Shown piece after piece: positions 1,015-12,534 of a DNA stretch of 12,534 nucleotides; positions within the stretch are counted from its first letter, which is position 1; every line of letters starts with the position of its first letter. This DNA is from Planctomycetota bacterium (GTDB lineage: Bacteria; Planctomycetota; B129-G9). The position numbers and the translations under genes were made by a program. A model generated the notes under the pieces. The model had not been told where the DNA came from. It searched no databases and saw nothing but the letters and a program-made list of their open reading frames with translations. Location of the stretch: NCBI GenBank assembly GCA_030607235.1, contig JAUWEX010000010.1, forward strand, positions 1 through 12,534, given 5' to 3'.

Positions 1015-2703
1015 ATGTTTACGTCAATACTGCGGTGTGCGTATCGATATATAAATCGGCGCGAACTGGCTGAATACCGTGCGGCGCTCAAAGACCCGCG
1101 CGGATTTCAGACCAGGCGGCTGATGGGGATAATTGAACGCAACAAGGACACGCAGTTCGGACGCAAACACGGATTCGCATCAATCAGGACGCTTGCCGAC
1201 TATCGCGCAAGCGTCCCTGTTTGCAGGTACGACTATTTCGCGGGCGACATCGACCGAATCGCGCGCGGCGAAACCAACGTCCTCACGGCCGAGCCCGTTA
1301 TCATGTTCGCCACGACCAGCGGCACGACCGACCGGCCGAAACTCATCCCCGTTACGACGACGTTTTACCGCGAATTCCGCGCGATCCAAAAAATCTGGAC
1401 GTGGCACATACTCCGCGACCATCCCGAAATACTGCGTGGCAAGTTTCTCACCCTGATATCGCCCGAAGAAAGCGAACGCACCGTGGCGGGCATCCCGTGC
1501 GGCTCGATGAGCGGCATGAACTACCGCCAACTCGCGCGCGTGCCGTGGCAGGGGCGGTTCATGTGCGTGCCCTACGAGGTCTTCACCGCCTCGGACGTCG
1601 AAGCGAAGTACTACACGGTGCTGCGGCTGGCGCTGGCCGCCGACGTCAGCCTGATAACGATAATCAACCCCAGCACGATTCTGATGCTGTGCAGCAGGCT
1701 CGAGCGGCACGCCGAATCGCTGATAAAGGACGTGCGCGACGGGACGCTGGTCGTTGCCGACAGGCTCGAACCCGCGATCCGCGCCACGCTGAAGCCGCTG
1801 CTCAAGCCCGACCCCGCGCGGGCGGATTTCCTGCGGCGCGAGATCGGCGCACAAGACGTTGTGGAACTGCGCCGCATCTGGCCGAGACTGGCGCTCGTCA
1901 ACTGTTGGACGGCCTCGTCGGCGGCGCATTACGTTATGCGCCTCAAGCCGCACCTCACCGGCCTGCCGATACGCGACCTGGGCTTCAACGCTTCGGAAGG
2001 CTACTTCTCGATACCGTGCCGGTCCGACAGCGTCGGAGGGGAGGTCGCCGTCAGCGGCCACTTTTTGGAGTTCATACCCTACGAACCCGGAAGTCGGGAT
2101 GCCGACGGCCCGGCGCTCACCTGCGACCGACTCGAAGCGGGCCGCTGCTACCGCGTCGTAACCACCAATTCCGGCGGACTGTACCGCTACGATATGCGCG
2201 ACGTGGTGCGGGTGCTGGAGATGTGCGGCGGCGTGCCGACGATCGAGTTCATGCACCGCGCCGACAACGTGGTCTCGACCGTAGGCGAAAAGGTAACCGA
2301 GTTGCAGATAGTGCTCCTGGTGAAAAATCTCTGCGAGCGGCACGGCCTGGAGGCGGAGGAATTTTTTGCGACCGTCGTGCGCGGCGACACGCCGCAATAT
2401 GTGCTGGCGGTTGAGGGCTGCGACGGCACCGGCGATGCGTGGCGGGCGATTGAGCGCGAAGCCGACGAGGAACTCAAGCGCATAAACATCGAGTACCGCG
2501 CCAAGCGCGATTCGCTACGGCTGGGGCCGATGCAGGTGCGGGCGCTCAAGAGCGGCAGCATGGAGCGGTACCGCCAACGGCGGCTTTTGCAGGGTGCGCA
2601 CGACGGGCAGTTAAAGATGCTGCACCTTGTGGGCGATCCCGATTTCATAAACGATTTCGATCTTGCCGGGAGCGAATCCGACGCGGGCGGAGAGCGGCGA
2701 TGA
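1015..2703 (+). CDS. GH3 (auxin-responsive promoter) family acyl-adenylating amide synthetase
   Basis: 562 aa, close to the usual GH3 length of about 550-600. GH3 proteins belong to the adenylate-forming superfamily. They activate a carboxylic acid with ATP and transfer the acyl group to an amine, often an amino acid. Motifs visible in order are the ATP loop ATTSGTTDRPK (residues 99-109), the FNASEG motif (324-329), YRYDMRD (390-396), VGEKVTE (423-429, K426) and a C-terminal Lys in LKSGSMERYR (K512) where the catalytic Lys of this superfamily is expected. AGGAGGG at 996-1002 supports the ATG at 1015, although the 12-nt spacing is long. The stop overlaps the next start (ATGA, 2700-2703), indicating translational coupling. 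The acid and amine substrates cannot be read from sequence. The neighbouring acyltransferase suggests a fatty-acyl or aryl acid rather than a plant-hormone-like compound; that is inference. Confidence 0.9.
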   Translation: MFTSILRCAYRYINRRELAEYRAALKDPRGFQTRRLMGIIERNKDTQFGRKHGFASIRTLADYRASVPVCRYDYFAGDIDRIARGETNVLTAEPVIMFATTSGTTDRPKLIPVTTTFYREFRAIQKIWTWHILRDHPEILRGKFLTLISPEESERTVAGIPCGSMSGMNYRQLARVPWQGRFMCVPYEVFTASDVEAKYYTVLRLALAADVSLITIINPSTILMLCSRLERHAESLIKDVRDGTLVVADRLEPAIRATLKPLLKPDPARADFLRREIGAQDVVELRRIWPRLALVNCWTASSAAHYVMRLKPHLTGLPIRDLGFNASEGYFSIPCRSDSVGGEVAVSGHFLEFIPYEPGSRDADGPALTCDRLEAGRCYRVVTTNSGGLYRYDMRDVVRVLEMCGGVPTIEFMHRADNVVSTVGEKVTELQIVLLVKNLCERHGLEAEEFFATVVRGDTPQYVLAVEGCDGTGDAWRAIEREADEELKRINIEYRAKRDSLRLGPMQVRALKSGSMERYRQRRLLQGAHDGQLKMLHLVGDPDFINDFDLAGSESDAGGERR

Positions 2704-3785
2704 ATCGCGTCGCGGTCGTGAAGTCCGATCCCGCCGGCGCGCGCGAGGGGCTGCGACGGGCGCTCGATGCGATAGGCTACGCGCCGGAGCGCGAGGACAT
2801 TTTTATCAAGCCCAACCTTGTGCGGCCGTTTGCGCCCAAGAGGGGCGTAACCACGCACCCGGCGATCGTCGAGGCGTTCGTCGAGTTGTTCCCCGACAGG
2901 AAATTCGTCGTCGGCGATGGCACGCCTGTGCCGAGGGACTACGAAAAAATTCTGCGCGTTACGGGTTTTCTGGCGCTGGCCCGTCGGCACGGCAACGTGA
3001 GGCTGGTGAATCTCGACGAGGAGCCGCGCGAAAAAATCGGCGACTGCGATCTGCCTTCGCTGCTGCGCACGCACGAGTATGTCAACGTCGCCAAGATGAA
3101 AACGCATTCGCAGACCTACGTCTCGCTCTCGGTCAAGAACAACAAGGGCCTGCTGACGTTGAAGGACAAGAAGGCGTTCCATCGCCGCGGGCTTCACGGC
3201 CCGGTTGCGCGGATAGGCGAGGCGGTCCGGCCCGCGCTCAACGTCGTCGAGGGCTTCGTGGCGCTGGAGGGCGACGGGCCGTCGTTTTTCGGCAAGCCCC
3301 GCAAGGTCGGCGCGCTGGTTGTGGGACGCGAGGCATTCGCGGTCGACGCGGTGTGCTGCGAGATAATGGAACTCGACGTCCGCAAGGCCGCGCATCTGCG
3401 GCCCGACGTGGAATACGAGGTTGTCGGCGACAGTATTGAGGCCGTGCGCGCGCGATTTGTTCCACCCGGCGCGAACTGGACGATCGGGCGCATGCGGATA
3501 CATTTCGACGAGCACTGCTGCTCGGTGTGCCTCTCGAATCTGCCTTCGCTGAAATCGAAAATTTTGCGGCGGCCGCTGAAATTGGCGAAGTTGGTCAAAT
3601 ACGCGTTAAAGGGCGATCTCGTTGTCGTCGGCGGCGGTAGCGTTCCGCCGGACATCGACGGCAAGCGCGTGATTTTTCTGGGCGAGTGCGGGCGCAAGTG
3701 CGCGCGCGCCGCGGGAATGGACGAAGACCACAGTGTTGCGGGCGGCTGCCCGTTCGACCCCGACGAATTCATAAAGATATTCTGA
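2700..3785 (+). CDS. DUF362 domain protein, putative Fe-S protein
   Basis: 361 aa. DUF362 hallmarks are visible: FIKPNLVRP near residue 36, VVGDGTPVPRDYEK near 71, and VNVAKMKTHSQTYVSLSVKNN near 128-148. The family is broadly distributed and poorly characterised, often associated with Fe-S ferredoxin domains. This copy lacks a standard CxxCxxCxxxC ferredoxin module. It has Cys at 273, 274 and 277 (HCCSVC) plus 330, 334 (GECGRKC) and 350 (GGCPF), which could together ligate one cluster; this is inference. The start is well supported: GGAGAG at 2689-2694 lies 5 nt before the ATG, and the ATG overlaps the GH3 stop by 4 bp. The stop is followed after 7 nt by the acyltransferase start. No signal peptide or membrane segment is evident, so it is probably cytosolic. 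The reaction is unknown. Confidence 0.85.
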   Translation: MNRVAVVKSDPAGAREGLRRALDAIGYAPEREDIFIKPNLVRPFAPKRGVTTHPAIVEAFVELFPDRKFVVGDGTPVPRDYEKILRVTGFLALARRHGNVRLVNLDEEPREKIGDCDLPSLLRTHEYVNVAKMKTHSQTYVSLSVKNNKGLLTLKDKKAFHRRGLHGPVARIGEAVRPALNVVEGFVALEGDGPSFFGKPRKVGALVVGREAFAVDAVCCEIMELDVRKAAHLRPDVEYEVVGDSIEAVRARFVPPGANWTIGRMRIHFDEHCCSVCLSNLPSLKSKILRRPLKLAKLVKYALKGDLVVVGGGSVPPDIDGKRVIFLGECGRKCARAAGMDEDHSVAGGCPFDPDEFIKIF

Positions 3786-3792
3786 AACCGAA

Positions 3793-4683
3793 ATGTTGCG
3801 ATACCTCTTTTATCTGGCCGTGAGCAAACTGGCGCCGATAGTGCCGGAGCGGCTGGCGTACGGGATTTGCCGGACGCTGGCGATCTTCCGGTTTTTGCAG
3901 TTTAAGACCGGACGCAAGGCGATTGACGAGAACATGCGGGTAATTTTGGGCGACGAGTACACGCCCGAGCACGCCATGCGGATCGCGCGCAAATCGATGA
4001 TTAACTTCTCGCGCAATGTCGCCGAGATATTCAAACTGCCGGTGTTGGACGAGAAGTTTTTCGAGCGCGAATGCACCGTCGTCGGCGAGGAACACCTCGA
4101 GACGTGTCTGGAGCGCGGCAAGGGCGCGATATTCCTCTCGGCCCACATCGGCAACGGCGAACTGGCCGTGTCGTACTACGCGATGCGCGGCTGCGACATA
4201 TCGCTGATCGCGCTGCGCCACCCCGGGCCGCGGACCGACGCGCTGTTCGTGAACCGCCGCCGTGTCAACGGAATGGGCACCCTGCACAGCGACGCTGCGG
4301 CGCGGCCCGCGCTGAAAATCCTGCGCAAAAACGGTGTAATCGGAATGCTCGGCGACCGTCGCACCGCCGAAGACGGGCTGCGGGTGCGGTTTTTCGGCCG
4401 CGAGACGATCTTCCCGAAAGGCCCGGCGTGGCTGGCCGTCGCCAGCGGTGCGGGCATCATCCCCAGCGTCTGCCTGCGTAACCCCGACAACACCTTCCGC
4501 ATAATTTCCGAGGCGCCGATCTTCCCGCCGGAGCACGGCGGCAACGCCGAAAAAATGTTGACGATAACACAGCGTTTTGCTAATTTCGTCGAATCATACG
4601 TACGCGAGTACCCGGACCAGTGGGCGATATTTTTCCCGTTTTGGGGAGAAGGCCCGCCGGACCTGTTGCGCGCGCAAGGCTGA
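3793..4683 (+). CDS. LpxL/HtrB-type lysophospholipid (lipid A) acyltransferase family protein
   Basis: 296 aa, the normal length for the lipid A late-acyltransferase family. These membrane-associated enzymes transfer a fatty acyl chain from acyl-ACP to a lipid or glycolipid acceptor. The HX4E catalytic motif is visible as SAHIGNGELA (H118, E123). A downstream GMLGDRRTAEDG block and a C-terminal QWAIFFPFW segment match the family pattern. The N-terminus (MLRYLFYLAVSKLAPIVPE) is hydrophobic and suits membrane attachment. The gene starts 7 nt after the DUF362 stop; a good Shine-Dalgarno is not apparent, consistent with coupled translation. The context (GH3, glycosyltransferase, radical SAM) suggests it acylates the product of this operon rather than housekeeping lipid A. 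The latter cannot be excluded, because homologues of both kinds share the motifs. Confidence 0.88.
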   Translation: MLRYLFYLAVSKLAPIVPERLAYGICRTLAIFRFLQFKTGRKAIDENMRVILGDEYTPEHAMRIARKSMINFSRNVAEIFKLPVLDEKFFERECTVVGEEHLETCLERGKGAIFLSAHIGNGELAVSYYAMRGCDISLIALRHPGPRTDALFVNRRRVNGMGTLHSDAAARPALKILRKNGVIGMLGDRRTAEDGLRVRFFGRETIFPKGPAWLAVASGAGIIPSVCLRNPDNTFRIISEAPIFPPEHGGNAEKMLTITQRFANFVESYVREYPDQWAIFFPFWGEGPPDLLRAQG

Positions 4684-4705
4684 AGAAATCGGAGACCGTC
4701 ACGTC

Positions 4706-5398
4706 ATGGCAAAACCCTTCCCGGGTCTTTTGATATTGATCCCCGCATACAACGAGGCCCGCGCCATAGGCAGGGTGGTGGGCGAACTCGTCGGCGGGGG
4801 GCACGAGGTGCTGGTGGTCGACGACGGCTCGTCCGACGACACCGCGATGATCGCCGAGCAGGCGGGCGCGCGCGTTTTGGTCAACGAGCGCAACCGCGGC
4901 AAGGGCACATCGCTTCGCCGGGGGTTCGTCTATGCCGTGGAGAACGGTTTCGGCGCGGTCGTTACGATGGACGGCGACGGCCAGCACGACCCGAAGTCGA
5001 TCCCCGACTTTTACGCCGCCTGGCGCGGCGGCAGCGATCTGGTCCTGGGCTGCAGGAAGTTCGACTACGACAATATGCCGTTTTGGCGCGCGGTTACCAA
5101 CAAATGCACCTCGCATGTCATTACCTGGTTTTGCCAGCGGCGTTTCGGCGACACGCAGTGCGGCTACCGCCTGATTTCCTGCCGTGTCCTGAAGAAACTC
5201 TTTGTCGATAAGATGATCGTTACTTCTGATCGTTATGATTTCGAGTCTGAGGTAATAATCGAGGCCGGCGCGCGCGGCTTTGCGATCAGCGAGGTCTTCG
5301 TTCCCACCATCTACAACAACTCCGCCAGCAACATCCGCCCGTTCGTCGACACGATGCGCTTCTTCAAACTCGTCTTCAAGTGCCTCCTCCGCCGCTAG
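4706..5398 (+). CDS. Family 2 glycosyltransferase (polyprenyl-phosphate sugar transferase-like)
   Basis: 230 aa from the ATG at 4706, which is preceded by GGAGA at 4691-4695. The frame is open further upstream to 4577, but that would overlap the acyltransferase by about 100 bp and lacks a ribosome site, so the shorter start is preferred. GT-A fold motifs are LIPAYNEARAIG near residue 11, VVDDGSSDDT with D39/D40, NRGKGTSLRRG near 63, and the metal-binding MDGDGQHDP (D89, D91). The pattern resembles dolichyl/undecaprenyl-phosphate mannosyl- or glucosyltransferases. There is no clear C-terminal transmembrane pair, so it is the soluble or peripherally bound type. It is last of the plus-strand unit. 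The donor sugar and acceptor are unknown; a lipid acceptor is likely. The TAG stop at 5396-5398 shares its G with the first base of repeat copy 1. Confidence 0.88.
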   Translation: MAKPFPGLLILIPAYNEARAIGRVVGELVGGGHEVLVVDDGSSDDTAMIAEQAGARVLVNERNRGKGTSLRRGFVYAVENGFGAVVTMDGDGQHDPKSIPDFYAAWRGGSDLVLGCRKFDYDNMPFWRAVTNKCTSHVITWFCQRRFGDTQCGYRLISCRVLKKLFVDKMIVTSDRYDFESEVIIEAGARGFAISEVFVPTIYNNSASNIRPFVDTMRFFKLVFKCLLRR

Positions 5399-9515: not shown

Positions 9516-10274
9516 CTAGTCGATGCGGGTTACCTCGACGGTGTTGGGGCCTTTCTTTTGCGCGTCGCTGAGCGCTTTGTCGGCGATGCGGGGCAGTTCC
9601 TGGTAGGATAGGCGGATCGACTCCATGGGGTCGAACGTCGCGCCGCCCGCGCTTATCGTTACGTTTATCAGGCCGTCCTTATAGATGACCGGCTCTTCGG
9701 CGATTCGCCTGAGCAGTTTGGTGCCGACCGTCATGCAGCCCTGCATGTCGGTTTCGGGCATGACGAGGACGAATTCGTCATTGCCCAGCCGCGCCAGCCA
9801 GTCGATATCGCCGCGGGTGCAGGCGGTGATCGCGCGGGCTACGTGGCACAGCACCGCGTCGCCGGCGGGGTGGCCGTATTCTTCGTTGATCTTCCTGAAG
9901 TCGTCGACATCTATCGCCAAAAACGACAGGTTGCGACTGTAGCGTTTGGCGCGGTTGATCTCCTTGACCAGCGCCAGATCGTAGTAATGCCGGTTGTAAG
10001 CGCCGGTCAGCGGGTCGCCCCACTCCAGTTCGCGCAGTGTCTTGTAGGTCTGGCTCAGTTCCCGGTGAGCCTCTTCGATGGCGACGCTTTGCGCTTCGAT
10101 TTTGGCCTCGGCATTGTGGAGGCTAGAGTTGAGCGAATTGATTTCCTTGTTGTAGTTGGTCAGGATGGTGGTGAGTTTGTCGATCTCCTCCTGCCGTGAA
10201 TGCGCCAGGACCGCGATGCGGTCGCCGCACGGCATAAGCAGCGTATCGGCCAGGTAAGGCTCGCCGTGTTTCAT
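9516..10274 (-). CDS. Diguanylate cyclase (GGDEF) part of an amber-split PAS-GGDEF gene
   Basis: 252 aa if counted from the ATG at 10274. Residues 1-25 (KHGEPYLADTLLMPCGDRIAV) look like the last strands of a PAS fold. Residues 26-85 form a coiled coil, and 86-250 a GGDEF domain, which makes cyclic di-GMP from two GTP. Motifs are DPLTGAYNRHYYD (87-99), IDVDDFRKINEEYGHPAGD (121-139), the active-site loop as GNDEF (164-168), and ADKALSDAQKKG near the end. GNDEF retains the D/E residues and could be active. The upstream I-site is shifted (RGDID rather than RxxD five residues before the loop), so product inhibition may be lost. The ATG at 10274 has no Shine-Dalgarno, falls inside the PAS fold, and is in the same frame as the preceding ORF across a TAG at 10284-10286. 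It is therefore probably the second half of one gene. Confidence 0.85.
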   Translation of the reverse strand: MKHGEPYLADTLLMPCGDRIAVLAHSRQEEIDKLTTILTNYNKEINSLNSSLHNAEAKIEAQSVAIEEAHRELSQTYKTLRELEWGDPLTGAYNRHYYDLALVKEINRAKRYSRNLSFLAIDVDDFRKINEEYGHPAGDAVLCHVARAITACTRGDIDWLARLGNDEFVLVMPETDMQGCMTVGTKLLRRIAEEPVIYKDGLINVTISAGGATFDPMESIRLSYQELPRIADKALSDAQKKGPNTVEVTRID

Positions 10275-10283
10275 GAAGGTAAT

Positions 10284-10286
10284 CTA
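10284..10286 (-). other. In-frame amber codon inside PAS domain
   Basis: The minus strand reads GTG TAG ATT ACC TTC ATG with no shift of frame between the upstream and downstream coding parts. Domain continuity across the codon (PAS start before, PAS end after) suggests a nonsense change, for example from CAG, or a sequencing error. Programmed readthrough is possible but unsupported: TAG also serves as an ordinary stop at 5396-5398 and 9516-9518. Confidence 0.8.
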
Positions 10287-11171
10287 CACGGTTTCGACGG
10301 GCAGGGTGTCGGTGCCGGCGATCTTTTCCATGATCGAGGCGCTTTCTTCTTCGAGGTGCTGGAGGATGCACTCGCCCTGGCACATGCCGAATCCGTCGCG
10401 ACAGCGCTGGTTGGCCGAGCGGATGATGAGGTCGTTGTCGAGTGTGCAGAACAAGACGTCGGAATCTTCGAGTATGTTTTCGAGATAATCAAAAGGCTTT
10501 TCCGGCTCGGTGTCGTCATCGGGGACGAAGCCGGCGGCGGAGAGCAGCAGATAGGCCGACCTGATTTCGGGCAGTATCAGCGCATCGCCTTCGGGGTATT
10601 CGTGCAGCATGTTTGCGAAGCCCGGCCCGCAGAAGATCGCGCGGCAGTCCATCTCGGATACGTACATGCTTTCCAGCGTCTCTTCGGCTTTGGCGGCGGC
10701 GCTTTGATCCAGCCCCAGCATCACCAGCGCCTTGGCGCGCAGGGCTGCGGCGCGACCGGCGACCTCGTCGGGTTTGAGTCCCGACGCGACGTATTCGGCC
10801 CGCCAGCCGTTTCCCGCAAGCATATCGCAGAGTTGTCCGCCGATGATCGCTTCGAGATTTTTGAGCCGCTCGTCGTCGGCGTTTCCGGCGATGAGCGCCA
10901 CGGGCGTGCGCGAAAATTCGCGCGGGGCGTTGGTGGTCAGTTTTTCGATTACGAATCCCAGCGCAGCCTGCGCCTTGGCGCTGCGCGCTTCGTCGTCGCC
11001 GACGGCTATCGCCTGAAGCGCCGGAAGGATGATCTCGGTCTGTATGTGGGTGTAGGGGGCGCCCTGCGAAAGGGCCTCTTCGATCATCGCCCAGGCCACC
11101 GTCCGGTGGCCCGCCCGTATGGTTTCGACGAAATCGGCCAGTATCGCGTCCGAAGAATTGTTTTGCGTCAT
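10284..11171 (-). CDS. Corrinoid-binding-like domain plus N-terminal part of PAS domain, ended by in-frame TAG
   Basis: 295 aa. Residues 8-80 form a helical bundle like the B12-binding cap domain (GHRTVAWAMIEEALSQG, then ILPALQAIAVGDDEARSAKAQAAL). Residues 90-215 look like the Rossmann B12-binding domain (TPVALIAGNADDERLKNLEAI). The usual DxHxxG cobalt-ligand motif is replaced by DDERLK, so a His ligand is missing and cobalamin binding is doubtful. A PAS domain begins near 227 (FDYLENILEDSDVLFCTLDNDLIIRSANQ) and is cut at 295. Cys at 241, 257, 264 and 268 are notable. The start at 11171 is chosen because AGGAA lies 8 nt upstream; the frame is open further upstream, but only antisense to the MATE gene. 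It is a sensor input for the GGDEF output encoded in frame right after the TAG. Confidence 0.82.
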   Translation of the reverse strand: MTQNNSSDAILADFVETIRAGHRTVAWAMIEEALSQGAPYTHIQTEIILPALQAIAVGDDEARSAKAQAALGFVIEKLTTNAPREFSRTPVALIAGNADDERLKNLEAIIGGQLCDMLAGNGWRAEYVASGLKPDEVAGRAAALRAKALVMLGLDQSAAAKAEETLESMYVSEMDCRAIFCGPGFANMLHEYPEGDALILPEIRSAYLLLSAAGFVPDDDTEPEKPFDYLENILEDSDVLFCTLDNDLIIRSANQRCRDGFGMCQGECILQHLEEESASIMEKIAGTDTLPVETV

Positions 11172-11390
11172 TTTTACGTTCCTGTTGGGGTTTTTTGAGC
11201 AATTTGCATTACGTTCGATTTCACTGGGAATATCGGTAATCTCGCCCAAATAATTCAATGAACCTGATGCCGGAAAAACCGACGCGGCGGGCGATTTCGG
11301 CGAGATGTCGCAAATTGATTTGCCCGTATCGCCGCCTGCTGTTAGAATGCGCCGATACGGTTTTTGAAACGAGCGATTGATGAGCGATTG
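11172..11390. promoter_or_regulatory. Divergent promoter region between the B12-like/PAS/GGDEF gene and the MATE gene
   Basis: The 219-bp spacer serves both divergent genes. It contains the MATE promoter described separately and a 14-bp palindrome GCAAAT-TG-ATTTGC (11310-11323). The related sequence GCAATTTGC (11199-11207) shares the 8-mer GCAAATTG in opposite orientation. A weak leftward promoter candidate is TTGAAT with GATATT at 18 bp, ending near 11232. The two GCAAATTG sites, one near each gene, could bind one shared regulator; that is inference. Confidence 0.45.
11320..11348 (+). promoter_or_regulatory. Putative promoter of the MATE gene with flanking dyad
   Basis: TTGCCC (11320-11325) and TAGAAT (11343-11348) have 17 bp spacing. 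An 8-bp inverted repeat, CCGTATCG (11324-11331) and CGATACGG (11353-11360), frames the -10 box. It could be an operator. Because the right arm is followed by TTTTTG, it could instead be an early attenuator. Confidence 0.5.
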
Positions 11391-11403: not shown

Positions 11404-12534
11404 TCGAAGATACGGCAATGTTTGACAAGCAGCCTCCACGGCGGTTGGTGCTTTCGCCGAGCAGGTTGCTGAGCAATATATTCCGGCTGGCGCTGCCCAC
11501 GGTGGCGGAGAACCTCTTGCTGGCGCTGATGATGCTGGTGGACGTGATTTTCGTGGCGCACTACGCCTACAACACAGGCGGAGAGAACCTGGCGGATGCG
11601 GCGATTTCGGCGGTTGGCACAAGCAGCACGCTGGGCTTTGTCCTTATGGTGTTGTTTATGCCTTTGTCCCTGGCGACCAACGCGCTGGTTTCGCGCCACA
11701 TCGGCGCGCGGGATATGGCGATGGCCCGGCGTACCTGCGCCCAGTCTACCAAGATCGTGGCCGTCGTCGGCACGCTCGTGAGCGTGCTGCTGTTTTTGCT
11801 GATTGACCAAATCCTCGGCGTGATGAAACTGGGCTACGACGACCCGCGGGTTTTCGTTTATTCGCAGAAATACCTGATCTGGATATTCCCGTCGTTCGTG
11901 TTTCGTCTGCTGCTGCTGAATTCCGCCTACGCCGTCAAGGCCGCGGGCAATGCGCACAACCCCATGATAATCGCCGCGTTCGCTAACATCCTCAACATCG
12001 TGCTTGACTACGCGCTGATTTTCGGCAAACTCGGTCTGCCGGAGATGGGCATCGAGGGCGCGGGCCTGGCCACGGCGATCGCGTCGCTGGTGGGCGGCGG
12101 GCTGATGACCGCTATGCTGTTTACGCGCCACTCGGTTGTTCACATGGGCTGGCGGCACATAAAGGGCTGGTCGTGGCGGGTGTATCGCTCACTTATGAGG
12201 ATATCCCTGCCGGGGATAGTCGAACAGGTGGGTTTACAGGGCGCGTTTCTGCTGTACCTGCGTATCGTAACCGACCTCGGCAAGGAGCCGCTGGCGGCGT
12301 TTATCATCAGCAGCCGGATCGAGGGCTTTTCGATGCTGCCCGCCTACGGTTTCGGCATAGCCTGCGCTACGCTCGTCGGCCAGTCGCTGGGCGCGGGCAA
12401 GCCCCGCCTGGCGCGGCAGAGCATGTTCTATTGCGGTCTGTTCGGCAGTGTTCTCATGGCGGCGGTCGGCGTGGCGTTGTACCTGTTTCGCTACGACGTA
12501 TCTCGGATTTTTCTCCCGTCGGACGACGTTCTTA
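11391..12534 (+). CDS. MATE-family multidrug/Na+ efflux transporter, 3' truncated
   Basis: The frame is open from the ATG at 11391 to the window end, giving 381 codons of an expected 450-480. MATE proteins are 12-helix inner-membrane antiporters that export drugs or metabolites using H+ or Na+. The first helix begins NIFRLALPTVAENLLLALMMLVDVIFV, with the family's ...P...E......D..FV pattern. MPLSLATNALVSRHIGARDMAMARR matches the conserved A...SR..GA.....A block. The second half repeats this as ISLPGIVEQVGLQG and GFGIACATLVGQSLGAGKPRLAR. About ten hydrophobic segments are visible. An in-frame ATG at 11418 is an alternative start; neither has a strong ribosome site, and 11391 is favoured by the TGATG coupling. 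No substrate can be inferred. It is divergent from the signalling gene and may share control with it. Confidence 0.9.
   Translation, partial: MSDRFEDTAMFDKQPPRRLVLSPSRLLSNIFRLALPTVAENLLLALMMLVDVIFVAHYAYNTGGENLADAAISAVGTSSTLGFVLMVLFMPLSLATNALVSRHIGARDMAMARRTCAQSTKIVAVVGTLVSVLLFLLIDQILGVMKLGYDDPRVFVYSQKYLIWIFPSFVFRLLLLNSAYAVKAAGNAHNPMIIAAFANILNIVLDYALIFGKLGLPEMGIEGAGLATAIASLVGGGLMTAMLFTRHSVVHMGWRHIKGWSWRVYRSLMRISLPGIVEQVGLQGAFLLYLRIVTDLGKEPLAAFIISSRIEGFSMLPAYGFGIACATLVGQSLGAGKPRLARQSMFYCGLFGSVLMAAVGVALYLFRYDVSRIFLPSDDVL

Follow-up and report, generated by a model that had tools for sequence, protein, structure and literature searches.

A TAG codon inside a gene for a corrinoid-like, PAS-like and degenerate GGDEF protein in a Planctomycetota bacterium, most likely a recent nonsense change

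The window analysed here, 12,534 nucleotides of contig JAUWEX010000010.1 from a Planctomycetota bacterium (assembly GCA_030607235.1), carries on its minus strand a gene for a putative sensor protein with a GGDEF domain, and this gene is interrupted by an in-frame TAG (Table 1). The frame counts 552 codons with its final stop, which is itself TAG. Around the interrupting codon the minus strand reads GTC GAA ACC GTG TAG ATT ACC TTC ATG AAA. The sequence thus confirms the initial annotation, which had described two coding stretches in a single frame separated by TAG and three sense codons.

The interrupted gene and its product

Both halves of the frame look coding. Each was the best of the six frames by coding score (0.58 before the TAG and 0.53 after it), and third-position GC was 0.776 before and 0.812 after. 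The gene contains 18 GAG codons. A Shine-Dalgarno-like word precedes the start codon, and none was seen ahead of the inner ATG at 10272-10274, as had been claimed earlier.

Table 1. Features of the interrupted gene and of a second interrupted GGDEF gene in the same genome (G000).
Feature	Position	Strand	Basis
Interrupted gene: corrinoid-like fold, PAS-like domain, coiled coil, degenerate GGDEF; 551 codons, TAG at codon 296	9516..11171	-	
Shine-Dalgarno-like AGGA, 8 bases 5′ of the start ATG	11180..11183	-	
N-terminal helical region, four helices, residues 7-81	10929..11153	-	AlphaFold2 model
Cobalamin-binding-like Rossmann domain without DxHxxG motif, residues 89-214	10530..10907	-	
PAS-like domain, residues about 240-325	10197..10454	-	Secondary structure of the model; PAS-GGDEF structures 5xgd and 5xgb
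In-frame TAG, codon 296, within predicted strand 293-301; Glu in 5 aligned relatives	10284..10286	-	
Inner ATG, codon 300, 9 bases past the TAG, where a 252-residue product could restart	10272..10274	-	
Probable coiled coil formed by one long helix, residues 327-381	10029..10193	-	Model; weak sub-cut-off coiled-coil Pfam matches
GGDEF domain, residues 386-543	9543..10016	-	PF00990, E 1.6e-32
Degenerate A-site (GNDEF; consensus GG[D/E]EF)	9771..9785	-	
Second GGDEF gene, in-frame TAG (1541-1543) inside the GGDEF domain	L046:896-1720 (G000:C406)		

The N-terminal part of the read-through protein has a Rossmann-type cobalamin-binding fold, which supports the corrinoid-like fold proposed earlier; cobalamin binding itself is putative. 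The nearest known folds are those that bind cobalamin in methionine synthase (9cbq) and in a Moorella corrinoid protein (1y80). Unlike these, the window domain is joined to PAS-like and GGDEF domains and lacks DxHxxG, the lower-ligand motif of cobalamin-binding proteins. The motif was absent from all six family members (the window protein and the five relatives described below), and Pfam PF02310 matched the window protein weakly (E 0.15).

The PAS fold had been said to span the TAG. In the AlphaFold2 model the TAG falls within a strand of the PAS-like sheet, which agrees with that claim, although the Pfam scan of the protein gave no PAS match.

A GG[D/E]EF A-site has been used as a criterion for an active diguanylate cyclase (PMC11327459, note to its Table 1). 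The window protein has the GGDEF domain but not this A-site, and the A-sites of the five relatives (GPDEF, GADSF, GGDSF, GDEEF and GDEEF) all depart from it too. With such degeneracy throughout the family, the GGDEF module probably serves as a non-catalytic output domain, and the label of a full diguanylate cyclase in the initial annotation seems doubtful on these sequences. FimX, which is not known to have cyclase activity, likewise combines a GGDEF fold with a non-consensus A-site; the window protein differs from it in that its Pfam scan gave no EAL domain.

Relatives, the genetic code and the origin of the TAG

When the read-through protein was searched against 5.8 billion proteins, three full-length relatives were found among the best 120 of 1496 matches (P0002-P0004; 52-55% identical, with 100% query coverage). 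Two unbroken genes, 37-39% identical (L011 and L012), came from a six-frame search of 59 whole genomes; they lie in G001 and G002, the two other genomes of the family to which the window genome belongs. All five share the architecture of the window protein throughout (36-56% identity in the alignment) but differ from the window gene in being unbroken and in having a sense codon, for Glu within a V-E-[IV] motif, at the TAG column. The database behind P0002-P0004 lists unbroken frames by construction; the G001 and G002 genes are free of that bias. The residue in this column had been proposed as a check on a point mutation, and the codon GAG for Glu is one base from TAG.

Homologues that are naturally two proteins would have spoken against a single 551-codon gene, but the five full-length relatives are single proteins running unbroken across the site. 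Two separate genes adjacent by chance are thereby ruled out. The G001 locus is orthologous, with a divergent MATE gene alongside and a YlbF gene downstream; neither was seen at the shorter G002 locus. A search with residues 1-350 had only P0002 and P0003 among the matches listed, and a scan of genome contigs gave matches to the GGDEF region only, in metagenome-assembled genomes named Aminicenantes and Fibrobacter. None of the six family members seen is named by the source databases, and a literature search for a B12-binding domain with a GGDEF diguanylate cyclase gave no match.

The window genome is metagenome-assembled, in 418 contigs, and 76% complete. To gauge its stop codons we used an unselected sample of 102 contigs (462 kb), taken in arbitrary blocks and not picked for any match. 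There, TAG ended 83 of 293 coding-like frames (28%), including genes for V-ATPase operon subunits and for PrmC. Release factor 1 was intact (L177:1904-2980; prfA score 481 bits, cut-off 423). Pyrrolysyl-tRNA synthetase (PylS, TIGR02367) exceeded its cut-off in none of the three family genomes and none of 149 phylum genomes, the best score in the window genome, at its 76% completeness, being 27.1 bits against 178.15; the genome also had no match to the MttB family. ARAGORN reported no CTA-anticodon tRNA at the 28 tRNA matches of this incomplete genome or in the 511 kb scanned. Genome-wide reassignment of TAG was therefore rejected on the frequency of TAG as a stop and the intact release factor, as was pyrrolysine at the TAG on the lack of PylS over cut-off and of MttB matches. 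An apparent excess of TAG-joined frames (18 TAG, 12 TAA and 7 TGA) consisted largely of opposite-strand shadow frames and gene boundaries.

The initial annotation had left a choice between a nonsense codon, a recoded codon and a base error. The recoded codon is not supported by these results, TAG being an ordinary stop here. A point change is the simplest origin, since the relatives have Glu and GAG becomes TAG by one base. The annotation's suggestion of regulatory read-through was not borne out by conservation, as none of the five relatives has the TAG.

Dividing the differences after the TAG by those before it gave 0.62-0.70 when the window protein was compared with the five relatives, and 0.52-0.71 when the relatives were compared with one another. 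Sequence beyond the TAG is thus no more diverged than in relatives, and no relaxed constraint is visible, so that the stop is young, is tolerated through read-through or restart, or is an error. That the rest of the gene looks otherwise intact, as noted earlier, holds: the downstream frame is open, coding-biased and conserved as in intact relatives, which is why we consider the change recent.

We favor, with a probability of about 0.6, a single-lineage nonsense allele in a gene that is whole in relatives, the TAG most likely having abolished function recently rather than reflecting an altered genetic code. A single-base change from GAG (Glu) to TAG would have occurred in one lineage. Translation would then stop after codon 295, leaving a predicted N-terminal product of 295 residues with an incomplete PAS domain. 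Ribosomes that terminate there may reinitiate at the nearby ATG, 9 bases further, and the predicted 252-residue product would carry the end of the PAS domain, the long helix and the degenerate GGDEF domain, freed from the sensor. Given the degenerate A-site, the loss would alter a sensor or receptor rather than switch a cyclase activity. A nonsense-interrupted gene is of a known kind; this one lies in a small degenerate GGDEF family.

Other in-frame stops and neighboring genes

Sites where a coding frame resumes past a stop numbered 43, of which 34 lay in the unselected contigs. For 27 of these 34, the two sides were joined across the stop by X, trimmed to 300-350 codons per side and scanned with Pfam. 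None of the 27 had a domain spanning the stop. Clear gene boundaries with differing domains on either side accounted for 18, and nine were silent, with no domain or with one on a single side (L096:4553, L151:8975, L165:6268, L176:481, L078:3125, L080:5685, L101:698, L150:1538 and L089:2386). Seven candidates lay outside the scan (L152:8063, two in L085, L103:12251, L108:2728, L151:8801 and L172:2087). The test can detect such cases, as the second GGDEF gene, on contig C406, has a domain at residues 117-274 that spans the TAG at 225.

In the same genome, none of 13 ABC_tran matches and none of three HD_5 matches had a stop inside. The TGA marked inside one PilZ match was the gene's own terminal stop, and two TGA marks in the relatives G015 and G039, among the matches listed, may also be terminal stops; erosion of a whole cyclic di-GMP network is not supported. 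EAL had no match in the three incomplete genomes of the family (G000, G001 and G002), although GGDEF, PilZ and HD_5 matched there. At L152 (G000:C71:2146-3714), two HD_5 matches of the HD-GYP type adjoin each other, and contig C71 also has a PilZ match.

The C406 contig was picked for its GGDEF match and is not part of the unselected sample. Its protein keeps a GGDEF A-site and an RxxD motif. At its TAG column the four closest relatives covering the site (P0123 and P0125-P0127) have His and the more distant P0128 has Asn; P0124 stops short of the column. A partial relative, 96% identical, ends before the column, and its label, candidate division Zixibacteria, serves as a lead only.

Elsewhere in the window, at 1015-3785, a GH3-family gene and a DUF362 gene overlap by four bases; plants are the best-known source of GH3 proteins. 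The glycosyltransferase ORF (open reading frame) listed at 4577-5398 begins at a TTG within a lipid A acyltransferase-like gene, and its true start is probably a later ATG.

Competing explanations and precedent

Several observations weigh against a simple nonsense allele. The TAG comes from an assembled sequence and may be a base error. An in-frame TAG occurs in two of the genome's six GGDEF genes, those of the window and of C406. A third TAG (11977-11979) interrupts an RHS-repeat fragment (L050:11266-13056, G000:C187), which looks like a remnant: its N-terminal part is missing and its C-terminal part has an HELGH motif. All three interrupting stops are TAG, as recoding or a suppressor would also predict, and the absence of PylS and of a suppressor tRNA is evidence, not proof, because the genome is 76% complete. 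With the window gene excluded, since its TAG was the reason for choosing it, one of five GGDEF genes compares with 0 of 293 ends (p about 0.017, post hoc), a zero that depends on Pfam scans with 16 of the 34 candidates silent or unscanned. The TAG of the second GGDEF gene is an unexplained loose end.

An error of base calling, assembly or strain mixture, with the gene intact in the organism, is a less likely explanation. The 418 contigs and 76% completeness suggest modest coverage, GAG is one base from TAG, and the remainder of the gene is intact. However, no domain crosses the stop in the 27 scanned candidates, so broken genes appear infrequent as far as in-frame stops were surveyed.

Diguanylate cyclase pseudogenes of Shigella flexneri (dgcM, dgcQ, dgcE and dgcN; PMC11327459) offer a precedent. 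Like the window gene, they encode sensor-GGDEF proteins with a premature stop ahead of an intact GGDEF region. In dgcM (stop 177) a Met lies at 180 and in dgcQ (stop 56) at 59, three codons past the stop compared with four in the window gene. The Shigella genes keep GG[D/E]EF and were expressed and blotted, whereas the A-site of the window gene is degenerate and the gene is known from the sequence of an uncultured organism. The results section of that paper links two bands per gene, for dgcM and dgcQ, to the stop with its neighboring Met. In the discussion, the dgcM bands are taken as separately translated parts, made without a canonical Shine-Dalgarno site, but those of dgcQ and dgcN as full-length protein and hence possible read-through, which weighs against the reading favored above. 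The precedent therefore bears on restart and read-through alike (PMC11327459).

A stable split, in which the stop and a restart at the adjacent ATG yield two functional chains, acting together after reassembly or each on its own, is improbable. The ATG lies close behind the stop, and dgcM, with a like layout, gave bands that the authors assigned to N- and C-terminal parts translated independently (PMC11327459). On the other hand, the break is inside a predicted PAS-like strand, none of the five relatives is split, and no Shine-Dalgarno word precedes the inner ATG. The Met is also present in the unbroken P0003 and P0004, and hence is not an added start. In C406, moreover, the TAG is inside the GGDEF domain, where a restart cannot yield a whole domain.

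Read-through by a minor suppressor tRNA or at a leaky TAG, giving full-length protein from both the window and C406 genes, is very improbable. It would fit the two interrupted GGDEF genes, set against the absence of broken domains seen in unselected contigs (the post hoc comparison above, its zero incompletely established with nine candidates silent and seven unscanned), and the suggestion made for the nonsense-bearing dgcQ and dgcN (PMC11327459). Against it stand the use of TAG as an ordinary stop with an intact release factor, the lack of PylS, of MttB family matches and of a CTA tRNA among the 28 tRNAs found, and the different residues expected at the two sites, Glu in the window gene and His in the four closest relatives of C406.

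Because both GGDEF genes require TAG as sense for a whole protein, one could further suppose that TAG read-through is a habit of this lineage on cyclic di-GMP genes, with termination efficiency or a weak suppressor coupling the state of translation to signaling. We give this idea very little credence. Under read-through of both TAGs, cyclic di-GMP signaling would be controlled at the level of translation termination.

The nonsense allele thus remains our preferred explanation, and the case serves as a worked example of how to decide, for a mid-gene TAG in a metagenome-assembled genome, between a nonsense allele, recoding and an error. A small family also comes to light in which a corrinoid-like fold lacking the cobalamin ligand motif is joined to a PAS-like domain and a degenerate GGDEF domain.
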